A stretch of DNA of 46,735 nt from a virus, in the IMG/VR virus record IMGVR_UViG_3300034072_001749, positions 1 to 46,735 of that record; one strand, written 5' to 3'. The stretch's first letter is position 1; every line of letters begins with the position of its first letter. The notes under the pieces are model-generated. The model worked only from the letters and a program-made list of their open reading frames with translations. It was not told the DNA's origin and ran no database searches. Positions 21,648 to 39,150 of the stretch are shown here, one piece after another. The position numbers and the translations under genes were made by a program.

Positions 21648-22004
21648 TCAGGCGGCAAGGGGATAAAGTGGGACGGACAAGCGGACGAAGCTGTTGGGCT
21701 GCGGATCCTCGAGCGACAGGCCTTCGAGATCGATCACCGCCTTGCCCTGTGCATTCATGGAAAGGCCGACACGTGTCAGGCTGATGCGCGGTTCCCAGCG
21801 CATGAGGGCGATCGCCACCGCCGCGTAGATGCGCTGGACTCCCCGGCCGTTACCGGGTTGGTCCGCCAGCTCCAACAACGCGGATCCGTAGTCGCGCAGC
21901 ATCGTGCGCAAGCCAGGCAAAGTGGTAAGGATATCCCCGATCGATTGTGCCAGGTGGGCGCGGCCAGCAAGCGGCTTTCCGGTATGGCGATCCATGCCGA
22001 TCAT
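21648..22004 (-). CDS. W: Baseplate wedge protein W
   Basis: This 118-residue P2 gpW/T4 gp25-type protein contains MIGMDRHTGKPLAG, HLAQSIGDILTTLPGLRTM and RDYGSAL. It is coupled to V by an ATGA overlap. In P2 W lies next to J; here it is with V ahead of FI. Confidence 0.94.
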   Translation of the reverse strand: MIGMDRHTGKPLAGRAHLAQSIGDILTTLPGLRTMLRDYGSALLELADQPGNGRGVQRIYAAVAIALMRWEPRISLTRVGLSMNAQGKAVIDLEGLSLEDPQPNSFVRLSVPLYPLAA

Positions 22005-23087: not shown

Positions 23088-23112
23088 TGTCGTCATCCCC
23101 GTTACCACGAAA
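23088..23112. promoter_or_regulatory. Late-operon operator C (candidate Ogr site)
   Basis: The plus strand reads TGTCGT, then CATCCCCGTTACC, then ACGAAA. It matches the 25-bp motif at 39080 and 32676 except for one base in the right half (ACGAAA instead of ACGACA). It lies 73 nt before the start of the structural operon 22526-15722. Confidence 0.68.
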
Positions 23113-23212
23113 GTGACGGGGTAAGAGCGATCTATGACGGCATGCACTGACTTGGCGGTTTCCGATGACATGGCGAACGTCTATCAAGTCGCCTGCTTTC
23201 GGAGGGCAGGAC

Positions 23213-23803
23213 ATGTCTGGATCGACCATTTTTGATGCCCATTGCCTTGCGCTGGGCAAGCTATGCGTAACCTGGGCGTTTGTGGATCGTCAGCTTAATG
23301 ACTTGTTGCGGGCTATGCTGGGCTGCTCAGAAGGTGCAGCTGCAAGCGTTTCCACATCAGCCGACAGCGTCGGAGCGAGAATAAACATCATTCGCCTTCT
23401 CAACGGAGAACGTCCGATAAGTCCAGATTGGTCCTCTGCCTTCGACACCCTGCTAAACTCGATCAATAATTGCGCGAAGCTACGAAATAGATTTGTGCAT
23501 GATCGATGGGAACTATCGGACGGCGGTCTGGTTCGCATAGATCGGCGCGCACGGACTAAAAAGCCGCAATCACGTAAGCCTATCATTCTGGAGTTTGACA
23601 CTGAGCATGTAACCGACCCAGGCGAAGTTGAAAATCTGATCACGAAGGTCGGCAAAATAATCTTCGCCCTCCACTGTGCAATTCGTGACCAAGAAGAGTG
23701 GCGCAGCAGCGATAATGGTATGATCGGTCGGCCGCTGTTATTGCGAGCTGGTGATTATGACGCGCTGCCTGATGCGATCGATATATTAGGCTTGTGCGGA
23801 TAG
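23213..23803 (+). CDS. HEPN-like protein, moron cargo gene
   Basis: The 196-residue protein starts MSGSTIFDAHCLALGKLCVT with GGAGG 7 nt upstream. It has an RNRFVH sequence (residues 91-96), the R-x4-H motif of HEPN RNase domains, within a helical protein (VDRQLNDLLRAM, FDTLLNSINNCAKL). HEPN proteins often act as toxins or abortive-infection nucleases. It runs opposite to the surrounding late genes, between tail-fibre and V/FI modules, where P2 carries Z/fun. Base composition is more AT-rich than neighbours, suggesting acquired cargo. Superinfection defence is a plausible role; not proven. Confidence 0.72.
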   Translation: MSGSTIFDAHCLALGKLCVTWAFVDRQLNDLLRAMLGCSEGAAASVSTSADSVGARINIIRLLNGERPISPDWSSAFDTLLNSINNCAKLRNRFVHDRWELSDGGLVRIDRRARTKKPQSRKPIILEFDTEHVTDPGEVENLITKVGKIIFALHCAIRDQEEWRSSDNGMIGRPLLLRAGDYDALPDAIDILGLCG

Positions 23804-23845
23804 CGGGCAGCTTGTCGGCAACGGCCGAGCTGATAGCCTGTCGAC

Positions 23846-24064
23846 ATGACGGTGAGTCGCATAGATCAGCTGATTGACGAGATAGAGTGGAGGTTCTGCG
23901 CGCCAATCGTCGATGAAGAGGCAGCCGTGGGCGCACTACAGGCGCTCTACGCGCATCTGAACGAAAGCCATGCTGATCTGACGGTCGAGCATGAGGCGCG
24001 ACTTGACGATATTCAGAGGCGGTTTCGCGCTGGCCCCGGCCTGTTCAAGGGCGATCTGCACTAG
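23846..24064 (+). CDS. Small hypothetical partner of the HEPN-like gene
   Basis: This 72-residue acidic protein begins MTVSRIDQLIDEIEWRFCAP. It lies 42 nt after the HEPN-like gene on the same strand and could be co-transcribed. It is helical, with no known domain. It could be an antitoxin or partner, but only position supports this. The ribosome binding site is weak. Confidence 0.5.
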   Translation: MTVSRIDQLIDEIEWRFCAPIVDEEAAVGALQALYAHLNESHADLTVEHEARLDDIQRRFRAGPGLFKGDLH

Positions 24065-24154
24065 CTGGTTTCCGGCGATGCGTGTCCCAACGCAAAATCA
24101 TGCTATGAGCGGCGTCAGAGGGCCCGGAGCGGTATGCGACCTGCCGTGCCTTTC

Positions 24155-24240
24155 GACCCCAGGGCGGATGTGCTTCCCCAAGCATGCCCTGGGGTCAATC
24201 GATCCCGGCGCCCGCCCTAGTGCTTTTGGGGGGTCGGGAT
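24155..24240 (+). terminator. Hairpin pair after the cargo operon
   Basis: Stem 1 pairs 24155-24165 with 24186-24196 perfectly (GACCCCAGGGC / GCCCTGGGGTC), with an inner TGCTT/AAGCA stem in its loop. Stem 2 pairs 24202-24207 with 24235-24240 (ATCCCG/CGGGAT), with CCC/GGG inside, and is followed by an AT-rich TATCTATTTAATATAATTAT. They likely terminate cargo transcripts; a structured RNA is another option. Confidence 0.5.
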
Positions 24241-24300
24241 TATCTATTTAATATAATTATGCGAGTTTGTTGGTAATTTAGTTGCGAATCTCTTGCGGGA

Positions 24301-24537
24301 TTGACACAGGTTCGGGCGTCATCAGTGCGACCCGATGGCTTTCCCGGCGTACTCGACATGCTTCCGGGAAATTTCTCCGACGCCTGGACCTGGGGACCGG
24401 TCTGGGCGTCGGGGATTTCTTCTTCCTCTCGGGAAACATACGCCCTATCTGGCGATTGCTGGCTGCTCAGCGGTTGCCAGCGATCCCGGCGCCTGCCCCT
24501 CGCTGTTGCGACCGGGCGCCGGGATCACCTGTGTCAA
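24301..24537. repeat. 237-bp segment bounded by an 11-bp inverted repeat
   Basis: TTGACACAGGT (24301-24311) is repeated inverted at 24527-24537. Inside are further stems: CCGACGCC/GGCGTCGG (24377-24384/24405-24412) and GATCCCGGCGCC/GGCGCCGGGATC (24482-24493/24515-24526, 12 bp). No gene is seen. The right repeat provides the stop codon of the tail gene 24534-25301. It could be a terminator, a structured RNA or a miniature insertion. Confidence 0.45.
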
Positions 24538-25301
24538 ATCACCAAGCCGCCGGATGCCAGAACGGCGGCCTGCAATCCCGTATAGCAGGACAGCACCTGA
24601 TTGTTGGTCAGCCTGCCAGCGTAGAAGGCCAGCGCCGCGATATCGACCGGGTCGGCGTAAGTGCTGTCGCTCGCAGCGCCCTCAGCATAGCGTCCGATTC
24701 CAAAGTGCAACGCGCCGCCGACAACCGCGACCGTAGTCGCAACGGTGTTGAATATCGCGTCTTCGCCGGGGTTTTTGCGGATCGCGACAACCTCGTTCGG
24801 CGCCCAGATGCCGCCCACCATGTTATGACCGGTGCCGCGATAAGCGGTTTCAGGAACTGCGGAGAAACTTGACCCGGCCCCGCCGTTCCGAACAGCCGCC
24901 TGCACATCGGAGCCAGCCGTCGTCAGCAGGCCGACATGCTTTGTCGTCACCGCATCGGAGCCACCAACGATCGCCGCCACCGCATCAGCCGACGTCCGTG
25001 CTACAGCGAGGATGGTAAAGCCGGTGTTGCCGGAGGCAGCGAACAAATCATCGCCGGAGAAGGGGGCGATGTATCCGGCCGGGAACGCGCCGATCGCGCT
25101 CGACGCCGCCCCCTCCACCGGCGCGCCTGTGCGCGCAAGATTGCGGTCGTTGCCCGAATAATCGCGCAACACATCCAGAGGCGCATCGGTGCCCAGAAGG
25201 TAGAATGCATATAAGGCGTCCGCAAAGTTCGGAAGCCAAGGCTGGTCATAACCAACATTGTAGATGGATGCGTCGGCGTCTTTGCAAATGAGAACTGGCA
25301 T
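24534..25301 (-). CDS. Tail-fibre-associated protein, lectin-like
   Basis: This 255-residue protein starts MPVLICKDADASIYNVGYDQ, with AAAGGA before the ATG. Its beta-rich sequence with GNTGFTILAVART and ALHFGIGRYAEGAASDS resembles laminin-G/concanavalin-like receptor-binding domains. It ends the J-I-fibre operon right after the spike gene, so a role in host attachment is likely. Confidence 0.6.
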   Translation of the reverse strand: MPVLICKDADASIYNVGYDQPWLPNFADALYAFYLLGTDAPLDVLRDYSGNDRNLARTGAPVEGAASSAIGAFPAGYIAPFSGDDLFAASGNTGFTILAVARTSADAVAAIVGGSDAVTTKHVGLLTTAGSDVQAAVRNGGAGSSFSAVPETAYRGTGHNMVGGIWAPNEVVAIRKNPGEDAIFNTVATTVAVVGGALHFGIGRYAEGAASDSTYADPVDIAALAFYAGRLTNNQVLSCYTGLQAAVLASGGLVI

Positions 25302-25305
25302 GTCG

Positions 25306-27159
25306 TTATCCTTTGACCTTCCGGAAGATTGGGCACCAGTTGTCCATTCTGAGGCCCTTATAGGTGATGCTGTCGCCTTGCCTGTCGCGCAGATTGCCGC
25401 GCGGGCCACTGGTCGGCCCGGTAACGTCGCCAAGGCCCGTTCCCCAAGCGTATCGGACCTCAGAGCCTGCCGACAGCACACCGCCCGAATGCTTTATCAG
25501 AACACGATCGGTTCCGATCAGCGAAACGCCGGTGATTGCGACGGCGGCGCCCGCATTGTTTACGAGCGAAAAGCCGTAGTTTCCGGGGTTCGTAACGGTT
25601 GCGGTATCGAATACCAATGAGCCCTCCGGCACATCGAAGGGCACGATAACGGAGCCGTTCAACCAGGTCGGGGCCAGCGGTCGAAGGTGACGCGGCTTAA
25701 CCCCATCGAAAAGCCAGCGCTTCCAGGCGATGCCTTCATAGGCGCCAAGCCGACGGTAGCTCGCGGGCGTCAGGTGAGCCAAGTCCGAGTGCGGCATGAA
25801 ATACAACGGCGTCGATAGCGCGAAATTCTCCTCGCTCTCTGCAAGCTCGACCAACGCCATCGCTATCAGCGGATCCGCAGCGTAATGGCGATGGCTCGCG
25901 AACTGATACACAATGCAAGGGATCGGCTGATCCACACCCGTCACACCGGCCGCGTAGGTCCTAAGAGCGCCTACGACCTGGTCTTTTAGTGCCGCCTTGT
26001 AGGTGGCCGGGTTTGTGCCCAGGGCGGTGTCGCGTTCACCCTGCCGCCATGTGATCCCGTGCACGAGATACGGCTGGCCCAGCGCTGCACCACGCGCCTG
26101 CCCGTTGGCCACATCGGCCTGAACGCGCGGCCAGTAGGTGCCGCCGGACTGAAGCGCGGAGATCGGCTGCGACCCCTCGCCCGGTGCAGAGAACAGGAAT
26201 TGCTGGCCGATTGCGCCAATGTCGATCCCATTCTCATCGAGAAGCAACTGGGCGATCATTTCGGCCATGCCGTAGGCGCCTGTTTCGCCATAGCCGTCGT
26301 CCGTGGCTGTATCGGCTTCCTTGAGACCAACGAGAGACGCATAGAAATTCGCGTTGTAGGCCGCGCTCGATACGTTGGCATCGCGCGATCGGAGGCCACC
26401 CTCGAACATACGGGCCCACGCAAGCCCGGCCACTGTCGATATGGCGGGACGGCCGTTCACACCGATTGACACCGACTGACCGTATAGAATGATGTGCGCG
26501 AGCAAAGCCCGTAGCGTGTAGGCCGCTTGTTCTGGAATCGACGCGCTGAATAGCCGGAGGCGCGTCACCTTCGTGCGCGTGCTGGCGATCTCGGCAGTGT
26601 TAGCCTCGGTCGAGGCTTTGAGCGCGTCGATTTCGACGTGCCTCAGACGCTCCGGTGTGACATCGAGGAAGATGCGATCCAGAGCATCCTTCAACCGCAA
26701 GCGATCGGTTGAGGCGTCCGGCACGAGAGCCTGCGCTACCGCATCACTGCGCTCCGACAGAAAATCAATCAGGACGTGCCTGATTGTTTCCGGAGTCACG
26801 TCCAGGAAGACACGATCCTGCCCATCCTTCAAACGCAGGCGATCTGCGGAACCCTCGGGAACCAGAGCTTCCGCCACCGCGTCGCTACGCTCCGCGAGCA
26901 AATCAATCAGGACGTGCCTAATCGTTTCTGGTGTCACGTCCAGGAAGACACGACCCACCCCATCCTTCAAACGCAGGCGATCGTCATGCGTTGGGCGCTC
27001 TACTGCATTATTTATCTCTTCCAGATTGGCGCGCTCATCCACCGTCATGCTGACATTGGTTTCGCCATCTGCAATAGCGTCGGCCGAAATGGTCGCATTG
27101 CCATTGTTGAAATCCTCAATGACTTCCGCCTTGAGCTTCTGAGACGTCTTGATGGCCAT
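25306..27159 (-). CDS. Tail spike with SGNH esterase-like domain and triple repeat
   Basis: The 617-residue protein opens with an N-terminal region, then three 46-residue repeats (60-197). An SGNH/sialate-O-acetylesterase-like domain follows: GQS at 227-229, WRQGERD at 371-377 and SDLAHL at 458-463, giving Ser229 with Asp459-x-x-His462 as likely catalytic residues. Such spikes deacetylate surface polysaccharide. The C-terminus (residues 485-617) is beta-rich. It follows another spike (27163-29568) by 3 nt in the fibre operon. Confidence 0.75.
   Translation of the reverse strand: MAIKTSQKLKAEVIEDFNNGNATISADAIADGETNVSMTVDERANLEEINNAVERPTHDDRLRLKDGVGRVFLDVTPETIRHVLIDLLAERSDAVAEALVPEGSADRLRLKDGQDRVFLDVTPETIRHVLIDFLSERSDAVAQALVPDASTDRLRLKDALDRIFLDVTPERLRHVEIDALKASTEANTAEIASTRTKVTRLRLFSASIPEQAAYTLRALLAHIILYGQSVSIGVNGRPAISTVAGLAWARMFEGGLRSRDANVSSAAYNANFYASLVGLKEADTATDDGYGETGAYGMAEMIAQLLLDENGIDIGAIGQQFLFSAPGEGSQPISALQSGGTYWPRVQADVANGQARGAALGQPYLVHGITWRQGERDTALGTNPATYKAALKDQVVGALRTYAAGVTGVDQPIPCIVYQFASHRHYAADPLIAMALVELAESEENFALSTPLYFMPHSDLAHLTPASYRRLGAYEGIAWKRWLFDGVKPRHLRPLAPTWLNGSVIVPFDVPEGSLVFDTATVTNPGNYGFSLVNNAGAAVAITGVSLIGTDRVLIKHSGGVLSAGSEVRYAWGTGLGDVTGPTSGPRGNLRDRQGDSITYKGLRMDNWCPIFRKVKG
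26569..26982 (-). repeat. Three tandem 138-bp coding repeats
   Basis: Three in-frame units of 46 residues begin DRLRLKD. Units 1 and 2 are nearly identical (RVFLDVTPETIRHVLID shared) and unit 3 has diverged (RIFLDVTPERLRHVEID). They lie in the N-terminal part of the esterase spike and could expand or contract by recombination. Confidence 0.9.
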
Positions 27160-27162
27160 GGA

Positions 27163-29568
27163 TTATGCTCCGTCCGTTTGGTCGCCGACCGCCGCGCCCA
27201 GTTCTTCGGACGTCGGGCGGGTGGGAGAGATGCGCAGCACGCCGTCATCGGCTGACCAGAGCCATGCGATGGTGCCGCCGCCCACGACGGGGCGAATTTC
27301 CAGCGGGGTGGCCATGCCGATATTGGCGACCAGATGGCCGTCATTGGCGATGACCAGGGGCGTGCCGACGCCCACGCCGTTATTGTGCGTGTTGAACTGC
27401 AGATCGCCATTGGCCAGCTGGTGGATCTGGGCCTGAAGTCCGTCCTCATTGAGGAAGTTGATCTTGCGGTCACCCGGCGCGACCAGGTTGACGTTGATTT
27501 CGCCGGCCTCGCTGCGGAAGGTGGGGTTGCCAAGGCTTTCAAAGCCGCCACCGGCCAGCATCGGGATGTTGGTTTCAAGGCGGCGTTCGGCCTGGTCGAT
27601 CAGGCCCGCGTCGATCGCGTTGTTGCCGACATTGACCCATTTGCCCTCCAGCATGCCTGTGGCCGAGCCGCTGACGCGCACCGGATAGCCGACGCCGGTA
27701 TTGACGTAGACGGCATGGGTCATGGTGCGCAGATCGGGTTCGCCTGCGTCCGGAATGGCTCGGCTTTCGATCGCCTGCACGTCGATCAGCAGCGGGCCGC
27801 GCTGGCCGAACACGGCAACGGCGCAGGAATGTTCAGGCGCGCCCTCAACGATGGTGCCGACATTCTCGACATCAACCGCGACGCGGCCGCCGCAGGCCTC
27901 CATGCGCACACCGGCATCGCGGCCGCCAGTGATCTGGCCGCTGATGTCCGCTTTCTTGAAGCCGGTGATCAGGATGCCCGGCCCGTCCATGTCGCGGTTG
28001 ATCATCGCGCCACGCACCGTGACCTGGTCGAACCCGGTGACAGCCAGGCCGCCATCTGCCGGCGTCACGCGGATAGCCTCAGGGACCATCGGCCAGTGCT
28101 TGCTGACATCCTCATAGCCGCTCTCGATGATCGGGCTGTCGATGACGACACGATCGGTGCCGGTGATCACGATGCTGGATTGCCAGACCTTGGGATGGAT
28201 CACCGAGACGCGACCGCGCTGGCGCGCGAAGACATCGCCTGCGGGCCGGCCATACCAGTTGCCCGAGGTCACGAAGCCGCGGCGAAAATGGCGCTGCGCA
28301 GCGGCGGCCTCCGGGCTGTCGGTATCATAGCCGGTGAAGTCGCCCAGCGTGTTGGCCCAGTTGGTGGTCGCGATCGTGGTGGACAGGCCGTCGCGGCCGT
28401 CGAAAATATCATTGATCGACACGATGTCGTAAAATTCTTCGGCCTCGCTATGCACCTCGATATTGGGGCCAAGGGCGGTCCATCCGCCATTGCCGTGCCA
28501 GCGATTGCGCTCCGAATAGAAGCGGGACATCGCGATCTGCGCGCCGCCCTGCATATTGTTGAAGACATCGCAGCCGATCACGGCCCAGTCATTGGACAGC
28601 TTGTCGGTGTCGAGATCGCTCCAGCCAAAGAGGGCATGGCCCCACCAGCCATGGATGCGGCATTCATAGGCCATGAGGCGCTGCACCGCGCCGCCGGAAA
28701 TGGCGTGCCCCTGAATCCACATCCGCCCGTCCGGCGTCTTGGCGGCATAGGCGGAATAGGTCTGGTTAGCCTCATTCCCGTCGATATCGAGCCAGCGGAA
28801 GCCGACGTCGCTGATGTTGCCACCCTCCAGATCTTCCCAGAATTTGGCGTAGAAGAGACCGCCGGGATTATGATCGCCGGGCGCGGCAAGGAATTTGGCG
28901 CGCGAGGCGCGGCTGTTGCCGACCAGTTCGACGCCCGACACAAGCGGGATACGCCCGCGCGGGAAAGGCAGGGTCTGGTCCGCCTGGCCCTTCTCGCGCA
29001 GGTTGAACGTGCCGAAATTTTCATAAGGGCCGCCGCAGACATAGATCTTGTCGCGGCCACCGCAATTGACGCGACCTACACCCCAGGCCTTGGCATCCCA
29101 CATCGCCTGTTTGATGGCTTCGGTGGTTTCGACCCAGTCGCTTTCGACGTCGCTGCCAAGCCGCGCTTTGCCGACGACTTCCCACAGGTTGATGCCGTGG
29201 TGTCGCAGCGATGCGCGCGTGGCGAAATGGGTGCGGACGGTCGCGCCTTCCGGGCCTTTTTCGGCGAGCATGGCTTCGCCATCTTCGGTGGCGACGAAGC
29301 CGCCGCTGGAGCCGTCAGCCGGAACGTCGGCATCGTCCTCAAGCTCCTCCAGGCTCTCATAGATATAGTCCTGGTTGTAGAGCATCTGGCCAAGCGCAGC
29401 GGCTTCGGAGCGATCGGCCTGGACGGCGGCCATATCGACATAGGGGATGGCCAGTTTCTGGACGACGGGCTGCACGCCGCCGCGCACCGTCTGGCCCAGC
29501 TGGACCATGGGGAATTGCTCATTGCCGCTGACTTCATCGGCAAGAGGGAGGGCCGTGATCTTCGCCAT
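27163..29568 (-). CDS. Tail spike protein, beta-helix type
   Basis: This 801-residue protein starts MAKITALPLADEVSGNEQFP. A capsular-spike-type N-terminus with QLGQTVRGGVQP leads to a large beta-helix region (GVELVGNSRASRAKFLAAPG, GISDVGFR-like ISDVGFRWLDIDG). It is likely a polysaccharide-binding or degrading spike. The predicted catalytic residues cannot be assigned from sequence alone. Its C-terminal segment carries SPTRPTSEELGAAVGDQTDG. Confidence 0.75.
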   Translation of the reverse strand: MAKITALPLADEVSGNEQFPMVQLGQTVRGGVQPVVQKLAIPYVDMAAVQADRSEAAALGQMLYNQDYIYESLEELEDDADVPADGSSGGFVATEDGEAMLAEKGPEGATVRTHFATRASLRHHGINLWEVVGKARLGSDVESDWVETTEAIKQAMWDAKAWGVGRVNCGGRDKIYVCGGPYENFGTFNLREKGQADQTLPFPRGRIPLVSGVELVGNSRASRAKFLAAPGDHNPGGLFYAKFWEDLEGGNISDVGFRWLDIDGNEANQTYSAYAAKTPDGRMWIQGHAISGGAVQRLMAYECRIHGWWGHALFGWSDLDTDKLSNDWAVIGCDVFNNMQGGAQIAMSRFYSERNRWHGNGGWTALGPNIEVHSEAEEFYDIVSINDIFDGRDGLSTTIATTNWANTLGDFTGYDTDSPEAAAAQRHFRRGFVTSGNWYGRPAGDVFARQRGRVSVIHPKVWQSSIVITGTDRVVIDSPIIESGYEDVSKHWPMVPEAIRVTPADGGLAVTGFDQVTVRGAMINRDMDGPGILITGFKKADISGQITGGRDAGVRMEACGGRVAVDVENVGTIVEGAPEHSCAVAVFGQRGPLLIDVQAIESRAIPDAGEPDLRTMTHAVYVNTGVGYPVRVSGSATGMLEGKWVNVGNNAIDAGLIDQAERRLETNIPMLAGGGFESLGNPTFRSEAGEINVNLVAPGDRKINFLNEDGLQAQIHQLANGDLQFNTHNNGVGVGTPLVIANDGHLVANIGMATPLEIRPVVGGGTIAWLWSADDGVLRISPTRPTSEELGAAVGDQTDGA

Positions 29569-29571
29569 GGG

Positions 29572-30036
29572 CTATTCCTTCGGCCAGGCAGGGTGATTGG
29601 CGATGTCGATGGCGGCGAGCGCGGCATCGTCGGCGGCGCTGATTTGCGCCTCGATCGTGTCGGAGGCGGTGCGCACGGCGTCGATCGCATCGAAGCGGGC
29701 CGATGCCGGCGTGCCGATCCGATCGAGCGGCGGCCAGGTCGCGGCGAACCGGATATCGTTCAACTGCTGCCAGACCGGCGCTATGGCGGTGATGCGGCGC
29801 GATGCCTCCCGCTTGACCTGACGAACCAGGGCGGCGCGCCGGGCGGCGATGGAAGCGCTGGGGCGGCGCAGGCGAGGCTTGCCATTGTCCCCGGCCTCGA
29901 TCGCGGCGCCGGCGGCCTGGGCAAGCATGAGTTCGCGGTGACGGGCGGCGGTCAGGGGCTGCGCGTCGGCGGGCAGATCGGTGTTGATCCGATCATCGAA
30001 GAAGCCGTGCGCGGAGGCGGAATAATAGAGCGCCAT
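29572..30036 (-). CDS. Tail fibre assembly protein-like
   Basis: This 154-residue protein begins MALYYSASAHGFFDDRINTD, the typical start of tail-fibre assembly chaperones (MxxYYSxSxxGFY). It has a helical C-terminus with VWQQLNDIRFAATWPPLDR. It sits between the H-like fibre and the spikes, where a P2 G-type chaperone is expected. Confidence 0.8.
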   Translation of the reverse strand: MALYYSASAHGFFDDRINTDLPADAQPLTAARHRELMLAQAAGAAIEAGDNGKPRLRRPSASIAARRAALVRQVKREASRRITAIAPVWQQLNDIRFAATWPPLDRIGTPASARFDAIDAVRTASDTIEAQISAADDAALAAIDIANHPAWPKE

Positions 30037-30039
30037 GTG

Positions 30040-31131: not shown

Positions 31132-31134
31132 AGC

Positions 31135-31782
31135 TCAATGCTCCAAAAATGCGCGGGTTTCGGCGAGGATCGGCTCGCCCTGTTCTGTCTGCAGATAGCT
31201 GTCCCAGATCGGGTCTTGGGCGGCGTCCGTATCGGCCCGCTCGTCGAGGCGGCCTTGCCCAGCGATGCCGGAGGCCGACACCAGCCAGGCCTGGACATCG
31301 GCCTGCATGCGGTAGACGGCGGTGAAATCGGCGCGAACCGGCTTCACCTGGGCAATGTCGCGCAGGATCTGCGCCACCGTCAGATCATCATAGACGATGT
31401 CGCTGTCGGCCAGCAGCGGCAGCTCAAGCCGGAACGTGTAGGGATCGAGCGTCTCGCGATCCCTGAACCATTCTACGATCTGGATCATCGGATCGAAGCG
31501 ATCGAGCACGGTGCGCAGCGAGGCGGGCGTGCCCTTGCGCCGCTGAAAGGCGATGGCGTCGGCAATGGCCGCGCGCTTTTCCGCCTCGCTCCAGGCCGAG
31601 TCCCAAATATCGATCGACAATTGCCAGGCAAGCCAGGGCAGCAGGGATGCGTCGATGGTCCAGGGGTTCCACAGCGTGTCGATCGCAACCGGCACCTGTT
31701 CGAGCGAAAGGGCCGGCGCGACCGACAGCGCGCGCTCCAGCGGCGTGGCGTTAGGCGGCAGCAGATGGGCGGGATCGGCCAT
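31135..31782 (-). CDS. I: Tail protein I
   Basis: This 215-residue P2 gpI homologue has LLPPNATPLERALSVAPALS, LVPWLAWQLSIDIWDSAWSE-like LLPWLAWQLSIDIWDSAW and GTPASLRTVLDRF. It joins J in the baseplate and holds the fibres. The start is adjacent to the J stop. Confidence 0.94.
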   Translation of the reverse strand: MADPAHLLPPNATPLERALSVAPALSLEQVPVAIDTLWNPWTIDASLLPWLAWQLSIDIWDSAWSEAEKRAAIADAIAFQRRKGTPASLRTVLDRFDPMIQIVEWFRDRETLDPYTFRLELPLLADSDIVYDDLTVAQILRDIAQVKPVRADFTAVYRMQADVQAWLVSASGIAGQGRLDERADTDAAQDPIWDSYLQTEQGEPILAETRAFLEH

Positions 31783-32633
31783 CAGAGCGCCTCGATCAGG
31801 ATGGAGGTGGGAAAGGCAGCCTGGGTCCGGCTGATCGCGATATCGGCCGCCGGGCTGATCAGTTGCAGCGTCTCGACGCCTGCGACCTGCAATGCACCGG
31901 CATGGCCTGAATAGCTGACGAGGCGACCGAGCTTGCGGCGTGTGGCCAGATAGGCGTCGAGCGCGGCCCGCGCGGTGGACAGGACCAGTTCCGTGTCGGG
32001 ACCATAGGCGATCTGCAGCCGGGCATGGATCGCATATTCTACGATTTCTGCGCTCTGCACCGTGACATGGTCGGTCAGCGGGCGCACCTCATCATGGGTG
32101 ACGATGGCTTCGACAGCGGCGATCTGGAGGGCGCTGGCAGTGCCGTCACCCGTAGCGCTCAGCAGGCTGACCAGCACTTCGCCCGGCGCGGGCATGATGG
32201 CGCTGGCGTCCGAGATGGTGACGTCGGCCGACAATGCGTGGAAGACATAAGCGCTTTCGGGGCCGGCCACCGAATAGCTGTCGGGGGCGAGCTGGACGCG
32301 GCGCAGCAGCGACGTGTCGTCTTCGCCATCGAGCCGCTCGACGCCGAAATAGGCGGCCAGGTTCTCCAGATCCGCCCCGGTGGCATAGGGCAGCAGCATC
32401 GACACGGCGCGCTCATTGAAATTCTGGCGCATGAGGAGTTCGCGATAGGCGAAAACCTCCACCAGTTTCATGGCCGGGTCGCTTTCAACCAGGGCGTCAA
32501 AGTCCGCGTAGCGCGTCTGGAAATCGGCCAGCATCTGACTTTTGATCGTATCGAAGCTGAGCGTTTCGATCACCTGCGGTGCGGGCAAACGCGACAGGTC
32601 GACGGCGACGGATGCGGACGGGAGGCTGGCCAT
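31782..32633 (-). CDS. J: Baseplate protein J
   Basis: This 283-residue P2 gpJ homologue has VDLSRLPAPQVIETLSF (P2 has DLNQLPAPDVVEEL), AYRELLMRQNFNERAVSML and QLAPDSYSVAGPESAY. I chose MASLPSASVAV at 32633; an ATG at 32657 is possible, as neither has a clear ribosome binding site. It is first in the J-I-fibre operon and lies 43 nt from late operator B. Confidence 0.93.
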   Translation of the reverse strand: MASLPSASVAVDLSRLPAPQVIETLSFDTIKSQMLADFQTRYADFDALVESDPAMKLVEVFAYRELLMRQNFNERAVSMLLPYATGADLENLAAYFGVERLDGEDDTSLLRRVQLAPDSYSVAGPESAYVFHALSADVTISDASAIMPAPGEVLVSLLSATGDGTASALQIAAVEAIVTHDEVRPLTDHVTVQSAEIVEYAIHARLQIAYGPDTELVLSTARAALDAYLATRRKLGRLVSYSGHAGALQVAGVETLQLISPAADIAISRTQAAFPTSILIEAL

Positions 32634-32675
32634 GGCCCATGTCGGCGCGGCGGCCATGCAAGGTTAAGGCAGCGC

Positions 32676-32700
32676 TGTCGTCATGACGGGGATGACGACA
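32676..32700. promoter_or_regulatory. Late-operon operator B (candidate Ogr site)
   Basis: On the minus strand TGTCGT, then CATCCCCGTCATG, then ACGACA form a 25-bp motif with a perfect 10-bp inverted repeat CTGTCGTCAT/ATGACGACAG (32675-32684 and 32692-32701). It lies between S and J and just upstream of J. Spacing and sequence match sites A and C. Confidence 0.78.
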
Positions 32701-32703
32701 GGG

Positions 32704-33189
32704 TCAATCGGATGCTAGCAGTTCCATCGCCATCGTCATAACCGCCTCTTCTTCTTCGGCCGTCAGGCCAAGCAGGACGCGTTGTGGATAGGTCACCTCT
32801 GGCGCGCCCGGCTTGCGGCTGACGCGATCGCGCAAGCCCAACTGATGCACCTGGCCGATGCGAGCCGCCGCCGCGGTAAAGCCCACTACTGCTTCTTGCG
32901 CCGTCGCGCTGTCTCGCAACCATCGCGCCTGACGCATTTTCCGGAACATCGACCGGGCCGCGACGCGTCGCTTTATTCGGCCAAGACGATCTCGCGCCGC
33001 CTCCCCCTTGCGCTTGCGCGGGGTGAAGCCCGACCCATCCGGATTTTTCTGTTCGGCAATGCGCTGGGCCTGACTGAGGCGCAGTCGACGGGCAACGGCA
33101 CGGGCGAAACGCAAGCGTGTGGCCGGCGTGACCGATGCCAGGATACGGCCAAGCTCCAGATCCAGCGGCGCGAACGGATCATCCGCCAT
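32704..33189 (-). CDS. S: Tail completion protein S
   Basis: This 161-residue P2 gpS homologue has RLSQAQRIAEQKNPDGSGFT and KKKGKA-like PRKRKGEAARD plus FTAAAARIGQVHQLGLRD. It is last in the O-N-M-L-lysis-R-S operon. The start lies 3 nt from the R stop. Confidence 0.93.
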   Translation of the reverse strand: MADDPFAPLDLELGRILASVTPATRLRFARAVARRLRLSQAQRIAEQKNPDGSGFTPRKRKGEAARDRLGRIKRRVAARSMFRKMRQARWLRDSATAQEAVVGFTAAAARIGQVHQLGLRDRVSRKPGAPEVTYPQRVLLGLTAEEEEAVMTMAMELLASD

Positions 33190-33192
33190 GGA

Positions 33193-33693
33193 TCAGGACA
33201 GGGGAAACAGGGGTTCGCCGCCCAGCCACAGGGCGGTTAGCGGAGGCCCATCCCCCAGCCCGGCCAAAGCCAGTTCGTCCGGCATGGCTAGCGGCGGCTC
33301 CTCGAGATGGACGATGTCATGGCCGCCATCTTCGCGGGGAATCAGGGTGACCGCTTCCGTCAGATTGAGCGTGATGTCGAGGTCGATGGCGCCGCCGCCC
33401 AATATGTCCGCCTCGAAACCGATAGCCTCGTTTCCGGTGCCATAATTCTGGAGCAGATCGACCTGCTCTACCGACAGCCAGCGGACTATTGCGAGCATCA
33501 CGACATCAGGATGACCGGTGAAGTCCAGCAGCGTGGCGCGCAGGCGATAGCGATATTCGAAGCTAGGGCGCCCCGGGTGGAAGCGCGTGGCAATGCGCCC
33601 CTGATCGACATAGATGGCGAGCCGATCGGGATCGCGCGCATATTCCGGGACGGCGGCGACCAGGGCGGCGCGCAGACGATCGGGCTTCAGCAT
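33193..33693 (-). CDS. R: Tail completion protein R
   Basis: This 166-residue P2 gpR homologue has KPDRLRAALVAAVPEYARDP, RFEYRYRLR-like FEYRYRLRATLLDFTGHPD and LTEAVTLIPREDGG. It overlaps the Rz1-like stop by 7 nt and S follows closely. Confidence 0.92.
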   Translation of the reverse strand: MLKPDRLRAALVAAVPEYARDPDRLAIYVDQGRIATRFHPGRPSFEYRYRLRATLLDFTGHPDVVMLAIVRWLSVEQVDLLQNYGTGNEAIGFEADILGGGAIDLDITLNLTEAVTLIPREDGGHDIVHLEEPPLAMPDELALAGLGDGPPLTALWLGGEPLFPLS

Positions 33694-33992
33694 GGCGCGT
33701 CGGGGCGGTGCCAGCGGATCAGCCGGCGCAGCTGGGAGGAGACATCGGCATAGGCCTGGGCCAGGCCAATCATCGGTGCACGGATCTCCGCCGGAATGGA
33801 TGCGGTGCGATCCTGCGGAAAGGCAGCGGGCACATCCGGGCAGAGGAGCAATGCCGCCGGCGGACGGCTATCGAGCGGCAACGCGATCACGGCCGGGGCC
33901 GGACGCGCCGTCTGGCGCGCGGCGCAGCCCTGCAACGCGGTTGAGAGCGTCAAACCAAGGGCCAGACACCCGATCCTGATCGATGCGGTCAT
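33687..33992 (-). CDS. Outer-membrane spanin lipoprotein (Rz1-like)
   Basis: This 101-residue protein has a lipobox-like LSTALQGC with Cys23 after a hydrophobic start, and a proline-rich mature part. It starts inside the Rz-like gene in another frame, overlapping it by 125 nt, the classic nested Rz/Rz1 arrangement. It would anchor in the outer membrane. Confidence 0.78.
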   Translation of the reverse strand: MTASIRIGCLALGLTLSTALQGCAARQTARPAPAVIALPLDSRPPAALLLCPDVPAAFPQDRTASIPAEIRAPMIGLAQAYADVSSQLRRLIRWHRPDAPC

Positions 33993-34383
33993 TCTCTTTC
34001 TCCATGGCGGCTAGGGCTTCGCGGGCGGTGCGCGCGTCGGCGCCGGCGCTGGCGGCGTCACCCTCAACCCGGGCGCGTTCACTGGCCTGATGCGCGGCCA
34101 ACGTGCGGTTCGATTCGGCCAGCGTCTCGCGCTCGAAGCGGGCGAGCGTGCCAAGCCGCAGGGTGCAGGCATCCGCGCGGCGGACTATGCCGGCGTCGGC
34201 CGCGATCGGCGCGTCGACGAAGGCGCAGGCGGTGCTGGCCCAGCGGCTCCAGGCATCACGGTCACGCCGCACCTGTTCATATTGGACATAGAGCCAGGCC
34301 CCTACCCCCGCCACGGCGAGCAAAGTGAGCCATTCCCGGCGCGCGGTGATGGCGGACCAGAGGCTCTTGACCAGGGCGATCAT
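33868..34383 (-). CDS. Inner-membrane spanin (Rz-like)
   Basis: This 171-residue protein has a single N-terminal membrane segment (WLTLLAVAGVGAWLYVQY, about 18-35) and a long coiled-coil periplasmic part. With the nested Rz1-like lipoprotein it would form the spanin complex that fuses inner and outer membranes at lysis. It overlaps the endolysin gene stop (ATGA). Confidence 0.8.
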   Translation of the reverse strand: MIALVKSLWSAITARREWLTLLAVAGVGAWLYVQYEQVRRDRDAWSRWASTACAFVDAPIAADAGIVRRADACTLRLGTLARFERETLAESNRTLAAHQASERARVEGDAASAGADARTAREALAAMEKENDRIDQDRVSGPWFDALNRVAGLRRAPDGASGPGRDRVAAR

Positions 34384-34919
34384 GACACCCTGTTCCGAAA
34401 CCAGCCGAACACGAAATCCTCATTGGCGGGCCGCGATCGTGCCAGATATTTATAGCGCTCGCCCTGTGAGCTGTTCAGGGCACGGAGCATGACAATCTCC
34501 GCATCGGCGCCGCGCGCCTTCAGATAGGCGCGGAAGGCCGTCAACGTCTTCGGCCCGATATCCCCATCTTCCTTGATATCGGGATAGAGCTTACCCTGCG
34601 CGTTGAAGGCGTTGAGCGATTCCTGAAACCAGAGCGCGGGAACCGATGGCCCCATGTTGACGCCCGTATCGAACAGCTCTTCACCCACCGCCGCGTTGAT
34701 TTCCGCAACGGCGGCAAAGCCGGTGTCGATGGCGTAGAGCTGCCGATAAATGGCCACTGCTGTCGCGCGAGGCAACAGACGCATATCCCCCTGATATCCC
34801 TGTTTCCGGGCCACGCGCTCGGTAATGCCCCACATGGTGGCGCCGCCAGTGTCGGAGGGGTGGTTTGAATAGCCGCCTTCACGGCCAATGACGTTGTCGA
34901 TCAGCGTTTCAATGCTCAT
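34380..34919 (-). CDS. Endolysin (GH108 with peptidoglycan-binding domain)
   Basis: This 179-residue protein starts MSIETLIDNVIGREGGYSNH with the GH108 catalytic Glu14 in EGGY, then TGGATMWGITERVAR. A C-terminal peptidoglycan-binding domain (DGDIGPKTLTAFRAYL) follows. There is no signal peptide, so it depends on the holin at 34923-35267. Confidence 0.93.
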   Translation of the reverse strand: MSIETLIDNVIGREGGYSNHPSDTGGATMWGITERVARKQGYQGDMRLLPRATAVAIYRQLYAIDTGFAAVAEINAAVGEELFDTGVNMGPSVPALWFQESLNAFNAQGKLYPDIKEDGDIGPKTLTAFRAYLKARGADAEIVMLRALNSSQGERYKYLARSRPANEDFVFGWFRNRVS

Positions 34920-34922
34920 GGA

Positions 34923-35267
34923 TCATTCCTTTTCCGGGATAAATCGCTTGCGCAGATCCGCTGGGAGGGCGCCGATCACATCGACACCGCCGGCAATGAA
35001 CCGAGGGGTGGCCTTGAACGCGATCATGGCGAGCACGAAGCTGATGGCGTCGGAGACGAACGGATCGAGGCGCAGCCAGGCCTCCAGGCCGCCGCCGACA
35101 TAATAGGACACGCATATGCCTATCGCCCACTGCATCAGCCGCTGGCTGAAGGAGAGGCCCTTTTCCCAGGCCTGGCCAACAGCCGCGCCGATCGCCGCCG
35201 GTGCCAGCGCGGATGCCGCGTCCTGCAGCCCGGCGATAATCTGATGAAGGAAGCCTTCGGATGCCAT
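34923..35267 (-). CDS. Holin-like membrane protein
   Basis: This 114-residue protein has two hydrophobic segments (LMQWAIGICVSYYVGG and FVSDAISFVLAMIAF). It lies 3 nt before the endolysin gene in the lysis cluster, between X and the endolysin. It probably forms the membrane pore that releases the endolysin. Confidence 0.75.
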   Translation of the reverse strand: MASEGFLHQIIAGLQDAASALAPAAIGAAVGQAWEKGLSFSQRLMQWAIGICVSYYVGGGLEAWLRLDPFVSDAISFVLAMIAFKATPRFIAGGVDVIGALPADLRKRFIPEKE

Positions 35268-35270
35268 GGA

Positions 35271-35480
35271 TCAATCCCACAAATTTACGAGAGCGACGGG
35301 CTCAGCCGAGGGCGAAACCGTGTCTGGAATGGTGACGATGCGCCCTTCGGCCAGTTGCGGGCCCTCGCCGGCCAGGCCGATATTGGCGGCCAGCACCGCC
35401 TGAACCACCGATGGGCCGCCGCCGTTGATGCGCCACACCAACTGGTCGATGCTTTCGCCCTGGACAGCCCGGACCTGCAT
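35271..35480 (-). CDS. X: Tail protein X
   Basis: This 69-residue LysM-like P2 gpX homologue reads MQVRAVQGESIDQLVWRING and VLAANIGLAGEGPQL. The start overlaps the L stop by one base. Confidence 0.93.
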   Translation of the reverse strand: MQVRAVQGESIDQLVWRINGGGPSVVQAVLAANIGLAGEGPQLAEGRIVTIPDTVSPSAEPVALVNLWD

Positions 35481-35971
35481 CAGATCAGCTCGGCATGGAT
35501 GCGCGGCACGGCGAGGATATCGCGCACGGCATGCAGGCCATCGCGGCGATAATCGTCCGCTGACAGCGCGCGCGCCTCCGCCCGGTCACTGCCGTCACCG
35601 GTGGCGCTGACATCACGGTGCGTTTCCGCCAGTTCGGCGCAGGCATAGTTGAAGATGGCGCGGCGCCAACGATGGCCATACCAGTTGCCGCCGTCGATAT
35701 CCGGCATGCCGGGAATGGCATCAGCACGGTCATAGCCGTCGAGCACCTGGGCCGTGCGCCATTCGGCCAGCTCGCGCATTGCCGTCGTCATGGCGGCGAT
35801 CACCGCCTCACGCAGACGCGCGTCCGTGACCGCCGTGCCCGTGCGCATGGCATCACGCAGATCGTGCAGGTCGATATCGGGGAAGAAGCCGTCCGCCGCC
35901 ACCAGCAGCGTGCAATCGGGCGAACCCGGGCAGGCGATCGACGGCGCGGGGACAGAAACGAAGCCGCTCAT
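35480..35971 (-). CDS. L: Head completion protein L
   Basis: This 163-residue P2 gpL homologue has FFPDIDLHDLRDAMRTGTAV, AMRELAEWRTAQVLDGY and WYGHRWRRAIFNYACAELAE, all family features. It caps the portal vertex after packaging. Before it, 35972-36128 holds no visible gene. Confidence 0.94.
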   Translation of the reverse strand: MSGFVSVPAPSIACPGSPDCTLLVAADGFFPDIDLHDLRDAMRTGTAVTDARLREAVIAAMTTAMRELAEWRTAQVLDGYDRADAIPGMPDIDGGNWYGHRWRRAIFNYACAELAETHRDVSATGDGSDRAEARALSADDYRRDGLHAVRDILAVPRIHAELI

Positions 35972-36128
35972 TTTCTTCCTTCCTGGTTCGCCCCGCGAAT
36001 TGGGGGGTGGGGAAAATGCGATCAGGGCGAATCCAGTAGCTGGGTGCCCTGCTCACTCTTTCCGCCCCCCAGACGCCGCGGGGCGAGCTGTTGGCCGGAC
36101 CTAGGGCCGGTGAACCGAAATGGGCCGA

Positions 36129-36260
36129 TCAACGCGGTGCGCGCGGGTGACCCGTGATCAGATGATCATGATGACGATGGCGGTAGAGGTTCGCCGCGAT
36201 CGGCAGCGCGAACATCAGCAGCACGAAGGCCAGCAGAATGAGACCGGGAAATAGATCCAT
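36129..36260 (-). CDS. Tiny membrane protein between M and L
   Basis: This 43-residue frame reads MDLFPGLILLAFVLLMFALP then IAANLYRHRHHDHLIT, with a single membrane segment and a histidine-rich basic tail. AAAGGAG lies 8 nt before the ATG. It lies in the capsid operon; its role is unknown. Confidence 0.6.
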   Translation of the reverse strand: MDLFPGLILLAFVLLMFALPIAANLYRHRHHDHLITGHPRAPR

Positions 36261-36274
36261 GATGTTACTCCTTT

Positions 36275-37036
36275 CTAAGCCGTGGGAGCCGGAATGGCCT
36301 TGGCCAGGCGTTCGAGCCGATCGACCTCCTTCTTGACGCCGACCGCGCTGTTGAGGCGCAGGGCCTCCTTCAGCTGGGCCAGGGCGGCGGACAGGGCCGC
36401 GCCCTTCCCGCCCGCCGGCCCGCTGTCGCCGGCCTCCATCCCCTCCGCCTTGCGCCCCAGCGCCAGGCCGATCGCCTTGCACAGCTTGGCGCGGACCGGA
36501 TCGAGCATATCCTTGTCAGCGGTGGCATCGGCCACGAAGCTGAGCCAGTCGAGATCGCAATCCTCACCCTGCTGGAGCCGCGCGAGCGCATTGTCCGCGC
36601 TGACTTCGGCGATAAATGTCGGGGCCGTCCTCGAAAAACGCTCCGGCAGGGCAAGGTCATGGTCGAGCACATAGGATACGGTCGACAGGGCGCGTTCATG
36701 GTCACCGATGTCGAGCGCCCACATCATCATGTGCAGGACGATATCATCCTGGACCGGCTTGCCGCCGGCAGACACGGCATCGAGCACGCCGGCAATCCAG
36801 GGGTCATATTTCTCGATCAGCTCGCGCTTCAGGTCGATCTTGCGATCGACCGCCTGGATGGACTTGAGCGCCTTCAGATCGGTGTCGAGTTCGGCCAGCT
36901 GCAGCTGGTAAGCGGACGCGCCCTCCCCCGTGACCACGGCAAGGCCATCCGTCTTGCCACCGTCACGCGTTTTCAGGACAGCCAGCTGCGCGCTCTTGCG
37001 CGCAAAATGCCGCTGGGCGGGGGTAAGGCGCGCCAC
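36275..37036 (-). CDS. M: Terminase endonuclease/small subunit M
   Basis: This 253-residue P2 gpM homologue has LTPAQRHFARKSAQLA near the start, then ELDTDLKALKSIQAVDRKID and DPWIAGVLDAV, and an IGDHERALSTVSYVLDHDLA motif. It cuts cos and starts packaging with P. Capsid gene N lies immediately upstream. Confidence 0.94.
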   Translation of the reverse strand: MARLTPAQRHFARKSAQLAVLKTRDGGKTDGLAVVTGEGASAYQLQLAELDTDLKALKSIQAVDRKIDLKRELIEKYDPWIAGVLDAVSAGGKPVQDDIVLHMMMWALDIGDHERALSTVSYVLDHDLALPERFSRTAPTFIAEVSADNALARLQQGEDCDLDWLSFVADATADKDMLDPVRAKLCKAIGLALGRKAEGMEAGDSGPAGGKGAALSAALAQLKEALRLNSAVGVKKEVDRLERLAKAIPAPTA

Positions 37037-37040
37037 CGGA

Positions 37041-38060
37041 TCAGCCCTCCGCCGCGAGCAGCTCGATATTTTCGAGCAGGAAGGTGGCCTCGTAATCCTC
37101 GATCACATAGCCTTCGTTCGACGAGTTATAGTCGGCCACGCGATCGGCCTCCGGCTCATCCTTGATGTGGCGGCGGCGCTTGCCATCCTGGAAATAGAGG
37201 GAAACGTTGGACAGCGGCGTGACCCAGATGGTGCCGTCCGGGAAGAAGGGCGGCGTCACCGGCGTCTTGCCGCCCAGGCGCTTGCTGGCCATGATCTGGT
37301 TGAGGGCCAGTTCCTCGGACGGCTTTTCGTCCTTGTTGACCTTCTCGAAATATTTGTCGTGGAGCAGATCCGCCGCGCAGATGGCCACCAGATCGGTGCG
37401 GTTGCGCATCCAGCTGGGTAGAAGCGAATGGGTGGCGTCCATCACCAGGGCGTCGAGATTGGCATAGTCACCGCCCTGGCCGATGGTGATCTTGCCGCTG
37501 CCAGCCACGACCTCATCCATGACGCGCGCCGCATTGTTGGTGCGCATGTCATGCAGCCAGCCCTTGTTGACGTCCTGCAGCAGGGGGTTGGTGGTGCGAT
37601 CCGTGTTGGCGGCAATGCTGGTACCGTTGAAGCCGATCATGATGCGGTCGAGCGCGCAGCGTTCGACGACGGCGGCGCCCCAGCGTGCTTGGAAGTCCGC
37701 AAATTTCGCCCACATGTCGAGCTTGGCGTAACGCAGCGCCACGTCGAAGTTGGTCTGGACCAGCTCAAAGCCCACTTCGTCCATCCCGGTCGGATCGCGC
37801 GGAACGCGGCGGCCCGCCCCGCTGGTATCGGTGCGTCCCGCAACGGTGCTGTTCACGCCCAGACCCAGCTTCGAACCCTTGAGTTCGGGAACGCCGGTGA
37901 TGTTGATGGCGGACAGGAAGGCGTGAGATTCCTGAATGCGAGTTTCCAGCGTCTGCTGGACCGAAGGCTCCACATTGAAACTTTCGGTCGGGGTGGTGCC
38001 GTTCAGCTCCTCGACGCGGGACAGATAGTGACGATAGGCCTGGCGAGTGTTCGGCTGCAT
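37041..38060 (-). CDS. N: Major capsid protein N
   Basis: This 339-residue P2-type capsid precursor begins MQPNTRQAYRHYLSRVEELN and has NITGVPELKGSKLGLGVNS, LRYAKLDMWAKF and IGFNGTSIAANTDRTTNPLL, all standard for the family. It is cut by the protease part of O. Confidence 0.96.
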   Translation of the reverse strand: MQPNTRQAYRHYLSRVEELNGTTPTESFNVEPSVQQTLETRIQESHAFLSAINITGVPELKGSKLGLGVNSTVAGRTDTSGAGRRVPRDPTGMDEVGFELVQTNFDVALRYAKLDMWAKFADFQARWGAAVVERCALDRIMIGFNGTSIAANTDRTTNPLLQDVNKGWLHDMRTNNAARVMDEVVAGSGKITIGQGGDYANLDALVMDATHSLLPSWMRNRTDLVAICAADLLHDKYFEKVNKDEKPSEELALNQIMASKRLGGKTPVTPPFFPDGTIWVTPLSNVSLYFQDGKRRRHIKDEPEADRVADYNSSNEGYVIEDYEATFLLENIELLAAEG

Positions 38061-38110
38061 GGGGTTACTCCGGTGTGCGGGTGTCGGGCAGGATCAGGGG
38101 AAAGGGCGCG

Positions 38111-38980
38111 TCAGAAATCGGCGAGCGCGAATTCGTGACCGCCACTGGCCTTCGGGCGCTGGGGGGTCTCGGTCTTTTCGGTGGTGTCGATCGACGCCTT
38201 GACGCCGGCAATCTCGCCCTTCAGTGCGGCCACATCGGCGCCCATCTTCTCCGACATGGCGGTCATGCCGGCGGTCATCTTTTCCATGCCGGTCATCAGC
38301 TGGGCGAAGCGCGCGTCATTGTCATTGGCGGGGGTGGGCTCTTCCTTGGCGGGCGGCTGTTCCTGCCCGCCCCCCTTGCCCAGGCCCTTGAAAAATTCGG
38401 TAGCGGCGGCGAACATCGACCGGTAATCGCCCGCGTCCGAAGGCGCCGGCGCATCCTCGAATTCCAGTTTGCCGACCTCCACCGCTTCCGAGAAGAAATT
38501 GCCCGGATCCTGCTTGCGGCCCACCAGGAAGCCCTGATCGCCCTTGCTCGCGGAAAACTGCAGCGCTTCGGTGCCGAGCGAAGCGGGTGAATCGGTGACG
38601 GCCAGACCCACAAGGGCGGCCTTGCCGGACTTGGCGAAATCGGGCTGGATCTCGACCGAGGTGAAGATCTTCTGCGCCTTCTGATTATAGGCCACCAGCT
38701 CGTCGGTAGGTTCGATCTGGGCATAGAGGCAGAGCTTTTTCGACGTCTTGCCGGCGATGGTGATATCGTCTTCCTGCGTCTTGACCGCGCGGACGTCACC
38801 ATAGGCCTTGAACGGGCCGTCCGCCGTGATGCCGCGAATATGCTCCATATTCACCCGCACCCCATAGGTGTCGGGGTTGAAGGTATCGGCCATCTGCTGG
38901 ATCCAGCTGCGCTCGATCGTGCGTCCGTCGACGGTGGCGCCTTCGACGGCTACGCGGTGAAATTTCGAGATCTTGCCCAT
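38111..38980 (-). CDS. O: Capsid scaffold and protease O
   Basis: This 289-residue P2 gpO homologue begins MGKISKFHRVAVEGATVDGR, with TFNPDTYGVRVNMEHIRG (protease) and a scaffold-type coiled C-terminus (about 205-275). I chose ATG 38980 over a longer in-frame reading that runs across operator A. It is first in the O-N-M-L-lysis-R-S operon. Confidence 0.94.
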   Translation of the reverse strand: MGKISKFHRVAVEGATVDGRTIERSWIQQMADTFNPDTYGVRVNMEHIRGITADGPFKAYGDVRAVKTQEDDITIAGKTSKKLCLYAQIEPTDELVAYNQKAQKIFTSVEIQPDFAKSGKAALVGLAVTDSPASLGTEALQFSASKGDQGFLVGRKQDPGNFFSEAVEVGKLEFEDAPAPSDAGDYRSMFAAATEFFKGLGKGGGQEQPPAKEEPTPANDNDARFAQLMTGMEKMTAGMTAMSEKMGADVAALKGEIAGVKASIDTTEKTETPQRPKASGGHEFALADF

Positions 38981-39079
38981 GCGGCCAACTCCGGCTGATG
39001 CTGTCACTGCGCCGGGCGGCCCCCCGCTCGGCAGATGCCGCAAAGAGCGCGCGAGGGGCGGCAAATCGCAACGCGCCCC

Positions 39080-39104
39080 TGTCGTCATCCCCGCCACCAC
39101 GACA
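39080..39104. promoter_or_regulatory. Late-operon operator A (candidate Ogr site)
   Basis: The plus strand reads TGTCGT, then CATCCCCGCCACC, then ACGACA, with an 8-bp perfect inverted repeat CCTGTCGT/ACGACAGG (39078-39085 and 39099-39106). It lies between O (leftward) and P (rightward), where P2 has its divergent PO and PP late promoters. It could serve both. Confidence 0.8.
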
Positions 39105-39150
39105 GGCAGGCGGCGAGGATCTCGGGTGCTCGCGACTAGCGTCGGCGCCG

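Follow-up and report, generated by a model that had tools for sequence, protein, structure and literature searches.

Late operons of the P2-like phages P2 and Smp131 depend on the activator Ogr, and in Smp131 one TGT-N12-ACA site is common to the divergent P and O genes while others lie before J and V, as given in its description (PMC3931495). A second arrangement is described for the Ralstonia P2-like phages phiRSY1 and phiRSA1 (PMC5694545): TGTTGT-(X)13-ACAACA, located 50-90 bases before the start codon, stated to be identical in the two phages, and found together with four late regions and an Ogr homologue with a conserved zinc finger. Here we describe three dyads of the form TGTCGT-N13-ACGACA, 25 base pairs (bp) long, in IMG/VR virus record IMGVR_UViG_3300034072_001749, which has a P2-like gene order and was analysed over all of its 46,735 nucleotides (the window). 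Very probably, the Ogr of this phage uses these dyads as its operators, which have a known architecture and a changed half-site.

The window resembles phiRSA1 and phiRSY1 in its 25-bp dyads, N13 spacing, four late regions and zinc-finger Ogr homologue, and it resembles Smp131 in having sites at O/P, J and V. It differs from phiRSA1 and phiRSY1 in the half-site, TGTCGT with a YGSR-type Ogr instead of TGTTGT, and from P2 and Smp131 in both spacing (N13 instead of N12) and inner triplet (CGT instead of TGT). An earlier note on this DNA had proposed a new operator class on the strength of spacing, setting TGT-N19-ACA against the N12 of P2. However, N19 counts the outer triplets, and the register comparable to P2 is the inner one, N13, which was already printed for phiRSY1 and phiRSA1 and is common in relatives. 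Since phiRSY1 and Smp131 provide precedents, the operator architecture was already known; what is unusual here is not the spacing but the CGT for TGT in the half-site and the Ogr motif that goes with it, a motif that the earlier note did not mention.

Three dyads at the heads of late operons

The predicted operators are:
39080..39104, no strand assigned: late operator common to the divergent P and O promoters, TGTCGT-N13-ACGACA, perfect
32676..32700, minus strand: late operator before J, TGTCGT-N13-ACGACA, perfect
23088..23112, minus strand: late operator heading the V-W-FI-FII-T-U-D block, with one mismatch in its right arm (ACGAAA)

The O/P site reads TGTCGTCATCCCCGCCACCACGACA on the plus strand and the J site TGTCGTCATCCCCGTCATGACGACA on the minus strand, both with perfect 6+6 arms and 13 bases between them; the V-block site, TGTCGTCATCCCCGTTACCACGAAA, has one arm mismatch. 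Thus, the earlier note's statement that one palindrome recurs at all three places holds for the spacing and for the sites at 39080 and 32676, but the arm at 23088 departs from it. Arm length and spacing of the phiRSA1 type were found at all three sites, with TGTCGT in five of the six half-sites and TTTCGT in one. The inner triplets are CGT-N13-ACG at the two perfect sites, and no TGT-N12-ACA occurs within the sites. Because the dyads lie between O and P, before J and before V...D, as the earlier note had seen, three sites would serve four operons.

Perfect TGTCGT and ACGACA arms separated by 5 to 25 bases occur twice in the window, compared to a mean of 0.02 in shuffled sequence, and none of 100 shuffles reached two. 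A scan allowing up to two arm mismatches matched only these three places, in agreement with the earlier observation that the window holds no further copies. Taken alone this looser scan is weak (shuffle mean 0.91, with 7 of 100 shuffles reaching three), and it is the positions and conservation of the sites that carry the weight of the evidence. The sister phage G001, whose terminase and Ogr are 96% and 93% identical to those of the window, has three corresponding sites, including the identical imperfect V site. Searching viral contigs with the exact 25-mer pattern returned two stretches, both from the sister record, and a search of viral contigs with the window Ogr for further phages with C at base 4 of the half-site returned the sister phage only.

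Equivalent dyads in related phages

To relatives of the window we assigned 44 viral loci from a terminase search and the best 80 of 442 genome loci from an alignment search, the closest genome loci among these 80 being from Sphingomonas and related genera. Across the 124 loci (2.28 megabases, some of them near-duplicates), TGTNGT-Nk-ACNACA was found 33 times with k = 13 and 17 times with k = 14, compared to 0-6 times for every remaining spacing between 6 and 23. Complementary bases stood at positions 4 and 22 in 53 of 53 sites, the window included (T-A at 48, C-G at 5). Such dyads were present in 15 of 23 viral records, at 2 to 5 per record and with a single spacing within each.

Twenty phages with called operators were examined for placement, the V region of the window being widened by hand. 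All 20 had their own site both in the O-P gap and before V or W, and 17 had it before J as well, a placement that is partly by construction because the operators were defined by comparing those regions. Matches with up to two arm mismatches numbered 78, of which 20 lay elsewhere. Three of these 20 were perfect extra copies outside the O-P, J and V operon heads, in G403 (L223+L224, joined position 13013), G317 (L225+L226, joined position 12771) and G652 (L365+L366, joined position 25999), and the G002 and G008 records hold 4-5 sites each; extra copies might mark further late-expressed genes. A different situation was seen in Pseudoalteromonas luteoviolacea NCIMB 1942 (L141), whose genome contains a P2-like late region and no match to PF04606. 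Its O-P and V regions have in common a weak GTTAT...ATAAC dyad (score 12.5, given without a null test), and with both the missing PF04606 match and the other dyad, another activator may act there.

When 109 stretches were aligned on the dyad centre, T, T and G stood at +21, +22 and +23 in 64, 59 and 94 of them, and T at +49 in 67, most clearly for O and V; A at +45 or +46 was prominent for P, J and V. The usual distance to a transcription start is 6-7 bases, so with T at +49 the dyads would centre near -55 of sigma-70-like starts, which we take to be the position of P2 Ogr sites as well. The candidate promoter elements in the window are:
39137..39142, plus strand: P promoter, -10-like TAGCGT, at a distance of 45-50 bases from the centre of the operator
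39066..39071, minus strand: O promoter, -35-like TTGCGA, at a distance of 21-26 bases from the centre of the operator

Ogr binding to the dyads is inferred from sequence, and another phage or host regulator could bind them while Ogr acts elsewhere. We regard this as very improbable, given that the geometry fits the position of P2 Ogr sites and that half-sites vary with Ogr residues, as described below. The authors on phiRSY1 and Smp131 also assign such dyads to Ogr (PMC5694545, PMC3931495).

The window Ogr and its proposed base-reading strand

The protein in question and its motif are encoded at:
12872..13207, minus strand: putative Ogr/Delta-type activator, 111 amino acids, CX2CX22CX4C, predicted zinc ribbon
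13109..13120, minus strand: codons of Y30-G31-S32-R33, the proposed base-reading motif (computed from start 13207)

The protein matches Pfam PF04606 at 37.6 bits (curated cut-off 26.3), whereas no NCBIfam family was found at 1e-3. Its cysteines C20, C23, C46 and C51 form the CX2CX22CX4C motif of Ogr/Delta activators as given in PMC3931495. Together with the equivalent dyads in relatives, this protein agrees with the earlier note's prediction of Ogr-type operators at the late operon heads. AlphaFold modelled the finger with a predicted local distance difference test score of 97-98 over residues 21-60 (mean 87.2) and strands at 26-36, 39-46 and 54-60, which would place motif residues 30-33 on the first strand. 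After the first CXXC, the window and sister proteins have Y-G-S-R, while most others have R-[T/S/N]-S-[R/K/E].

The best superposition of the predicted finger in the PDB was with the zinc ribbon of NrdR (Z 5.5, root-mean-square deviation 1.0, 42 residues; Foldseek E 0.12), although these values fall short of demonstrating kinship and a Z under 8 may reflect a common arrangement. Asp15 and Arg17 are among the DNA-recognition residues reported for NrdR, whose zinc ribbons pair via the third strand (PMC12176259). By our own mapping, which is an analogy, these residues fall on the strand equivalent to the first strand of Ogr. NrdR, the ribonucleotide reductase repressor, is otherwise unlike Ogr: it has an ATP cone, recognizes 16-bp boxes and represses. 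When solved structures were searched with a profile built from 50 Ogr sequences, the 22 sequences matched at E <=1 included no Ogr/Delta entry, and the best match, RPB9, was weak (E 0.0014). No paper listed in searches of the open-access literature appeared to address how Ogr recognizes DNA, subscription papers being mostly outside those searches.

Joint variation of the Ogr motif and the operator half-site

To compare motif and half-site, operators were called as dyads common to late regions, with the Ogr motif not used in the calling, and were accepted at score 13 and null p 0.05. The 84 Ogr/late-region pairs gave 37 accepted odd-frame operators, 12 even-frame operators and 35 pairs without an accepted call. 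The 12 even-length dyads were left out of the tests because their register is ambiguous. The odd-frame set contains near-duplicates; for the tests on 30 representatives, and for those only, Ogr proteins in it were merged at 80% identity.

The inner triplet is TGT in most relatives and CGT in the window, and it varies jointly with the Ogr motif. Representatives with Arg and a non-Arg neighbour had TGT in 21 of 21 cases, compared to one of nine for other motifs (Fisher p 1.5e-6). These nine were RR with GGT (two), LT with TCT, IK with TTG, YG and EG with CGT, HG with CCT, ED with CGG and YD with TGT. The pairing of motif and triplet across relatives can be written RR/GGT, L/T-T/TCT, I/V-K/TTG and Y/E-G/CGT. 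Position 33 varied with base 2 in the same way: among the 30 representatives, Arg or Lys went with G2 in 15 of 16, compared to 4 of 14 for any other residue (p 3.8e-4), and Asp or Glu went with C at base 2 in 7 of 9. Within a single clade (support 98/97) all of RTTK with GGTTGT, TTTK with GGTTCT, RSTE with CTTGT and LTSE with CTTCT were found, the TTTK and RTTK proteins being 73-76% identical over 45 residues. Merging placed TTTK (L275) under RSTE (L254), at 80% over 45 residues.

Some operators were read by eye and stand outside the statistics. That of G355 (HGSE) has C2 and C4 in six of six half-sites; those of G703, G701, G698, G700 and G912 were also read in this way. In G685, a three-region caller that was later abandoned showed the same 21-mer, with inner GGT, in three locations. 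The dyad of G496 (IKTK), GGTTAG-N12-CTAACC, is even and its register is uncertain, and no operator was called for G886 (AKSR).

Collectively, these findings point to a model for which we estimate a probability of about 0.8, in which Ogr binds the dyads and activates the late promoters while one strand of its ribbon reads the half-site. One Ogr zinc ribbon would probably occupy each arm of the dyad, as part of a dimer, and bound Ogr would activate host sigma-70-type promoters with starts some 55 bases away from the centre of the dyad. Of the three sites, the one between O and P would act on both divergent promoters, and the other two on J and the V...D block. The first zinc-ribbon strand would lie along the half-site at about one residue per base, such that residue 33 reads base 2, residue 31 base 4 and residue 30 base 5. 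In the window, Y30-G31 occupy the positions held by Arg-Thr/Ser in most relatives, and the half-site is TGTCGT in place of the TGTTGT of most near relatives; R33 goes with G2.

The co-variation of motif and operator suggests a residue-to-base code, with exceptions. We lean slightly towards a broader proposal, in which Ogr ribbons use a simple collinear code on one strand, P2-like phages have repeatedly rewired all of their late operators simultaneously through changes in these residues, the TGT/ACA supposed to be invariant is just the Arg version, and the window phage went from TGTTGT to TGTCGT. If so, an Ogr sequence would allow late promoters, and cargo genes expressed late, to be predicted, and these phages would show a regulator and several dispersed sites changing specificity together. 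The natural co-variation yields a specific map from residues to bases, for which existing proteins would serve as test material.

Ancestry and hold-out predictions

The dyads could be Ogr operators and yet owe most of the link between motif and half-site to shared ancestry, with the contacts made elsewhere in Ogr. A scan without ancestry correction covered 64 columns of Ogr in 44 merged rows, among them those of the hold-out sets. The top-ranking column was residue 33 for base 2 (z 9.1, compared to 5.3 for the runner-up) and residue 30 for base 5 (z 6.3, compared to 3.3), which speaks for contacts at the motif. When the motif residues were kept out of the tree, seven changes were needed for operator class and seven for Ogr class, and eight each for base 2 and the class of residue 33. 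The best tree places the window pair among RTSR-type relatives with TGT, a placement that is weakly supported since only the pair itself is firm. This position and the four motif/half-site combinations within one supported clade argue against ancestry as the main cause. Conversely, the RR, IK/VK and HG/EG groups may each be a single event, and with so few independent pairs on supported branches (three per trait pair) the sign test cannot reach significance, so ancestry may underlie the co-variation. Typically two operator-class pairs agreed, one showed no difference and none disagreed, with about the same result for base 2. On balance we consider a mainly ancestral link unlikely, and continue to favour reading of the half-site by the first strand.

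In the first hold-out set, 15 of 19 prophages with written predictions gave operators, G379 and G478 at the null threshold of p 0.05. The written prediction was TGT in each of these 15 and proved right in 13, and Asp or Glu went with C at base 2 in four of five, the fifth being mixed. This set mostly tests the common motif class. An additional genome fetched without a written prediction, G280, gave no operator call. In the second set, G716 (VKSR) had TTG, as predicted in writing beforehand. The RSAG and RTSG proteins of the first set (L322 in G478, L208 in G063) belong to an Ogr subfamily with an extra residue in the second knuckle and inner TGG operators.

Several results weigh against operators read residue by residue and should be kept in view. 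Calling failed for 35 of 84 panel pairs and for eight of the nine prophages in the second hold-out set. YDSV keeps TGT and is an exception to the pairing, and both misses of the first hold-out set, G478 and G063, had TGG where TGT was predicted; Arg or Lys went with G at base 2 in only two of four there. For base 4, residue 31 ranked third, after columns 65 and 88, which also favours contacts elsewhere, and supported independent pairs numbered just three. In the window, the V-block site has its mismatch, and J and V have weak promoter elements. Finally, the 14-mer that begins the dyads is a frequent word in sphingomonad genomes.

A shared 14-mer core and a host repeat

The left 14-mer, TGTCGTCATCCCCG, occurs exactly three times in the window and in 54 of 337 Sphingomonas-family genomes, with zero for a reversed-pattern control among the rows listed. 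This raised the question of whether the dyads are terminators or pieces of a dispersed host palindrome beginning with the same 14 bases. They are GC-rich intergenic palindromes, the J site lies close after the S stop codon, and 9 of 20 genomic places that we read were GC-rich hairpins resembling CCCCGCG-N-AGGCGGGG. Nevertheless, this explanation seems even less probable than binding by another regulator: the sites lie where relatives have their operators and with equal spacing, the O/P site stands between divergent genes where no terminator is needed, and the operator right arm at N13 was present at 0 of the 20 places read. Due to this absence, the host repeat was rejected as the identity of the full dyad, and Ogr operators remain the preferred reading. 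Because the 14-mer is common in sphingomonad genomes, the three sites may owe their identical core to something else. A narrow pattern fitting the J site only was found in 0 of 397 Sphingomonas-family genomes, and the J-site region had no match when compared to plasmids. The dispersed hairpins beginning with TGTCGTCATCCCCG are L439-L445, L454 and L456, seven of them in G067 alone.

Panel composition

Genome loci were matched to an Ogr manually, on the basis of strand and of position within the contig. Loci whose Ogr could not be placed in the same prophage, or Ogr proteins without a locus, were left out (L074, L087, L088, L091, L097, L107, L112, L123, L134, L143, L144, L148), as were second Ogr copies, the genomes without an Ogr match (L083, L084, L141) and the two-Ogr records G017-G019. 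Viral records G697, G705 and G707 were left out as repeats of panel Ogr proteins. For L015, L016 and L017, GC-rich false pairs were called, although TGTTGT-N14 sites are present. The records G017-G019 (L058, L061, L063, L067-L069) are P2-like, with two adjacent Ogr_Delta matches each.

Late gene layout of the window

The late genes referred to above are:
39151..40989, plus strand: P, terminase large subunit, likely start ATG 39151
40989..42005, after P: Q, portal
38111..38980, minus strand: O, scaffold/protease, with ATG 38980 as the likely start, judged from the sequence
31782..32633, minus strand: J, baseplate, in-frame ATG 32633 favoured over 32657 in our own reading
22526..23014, minus strand: open reading frame of 162 amino acids, the first after the V-block operator, between it and V
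15722..22522, minus strand: V, W, FI, FII, T, U, D tail block

P and Q are oriented rightward, while O, followed on the same strand by N, M, endolysin, tail terminator and S, runs leftward towards J; after J come more tail and fibre genes and then the V, W, FI, FII, T, U, D block. The 162-amino-acid open reading frame had no family match in Pfam, PHROGs or NCBIfam. Directly after Q, on the same strand, a gene at 42038-42859, scoring under the NCBIfam cut-off, encodes a Dam-like adenine methyltransferase.

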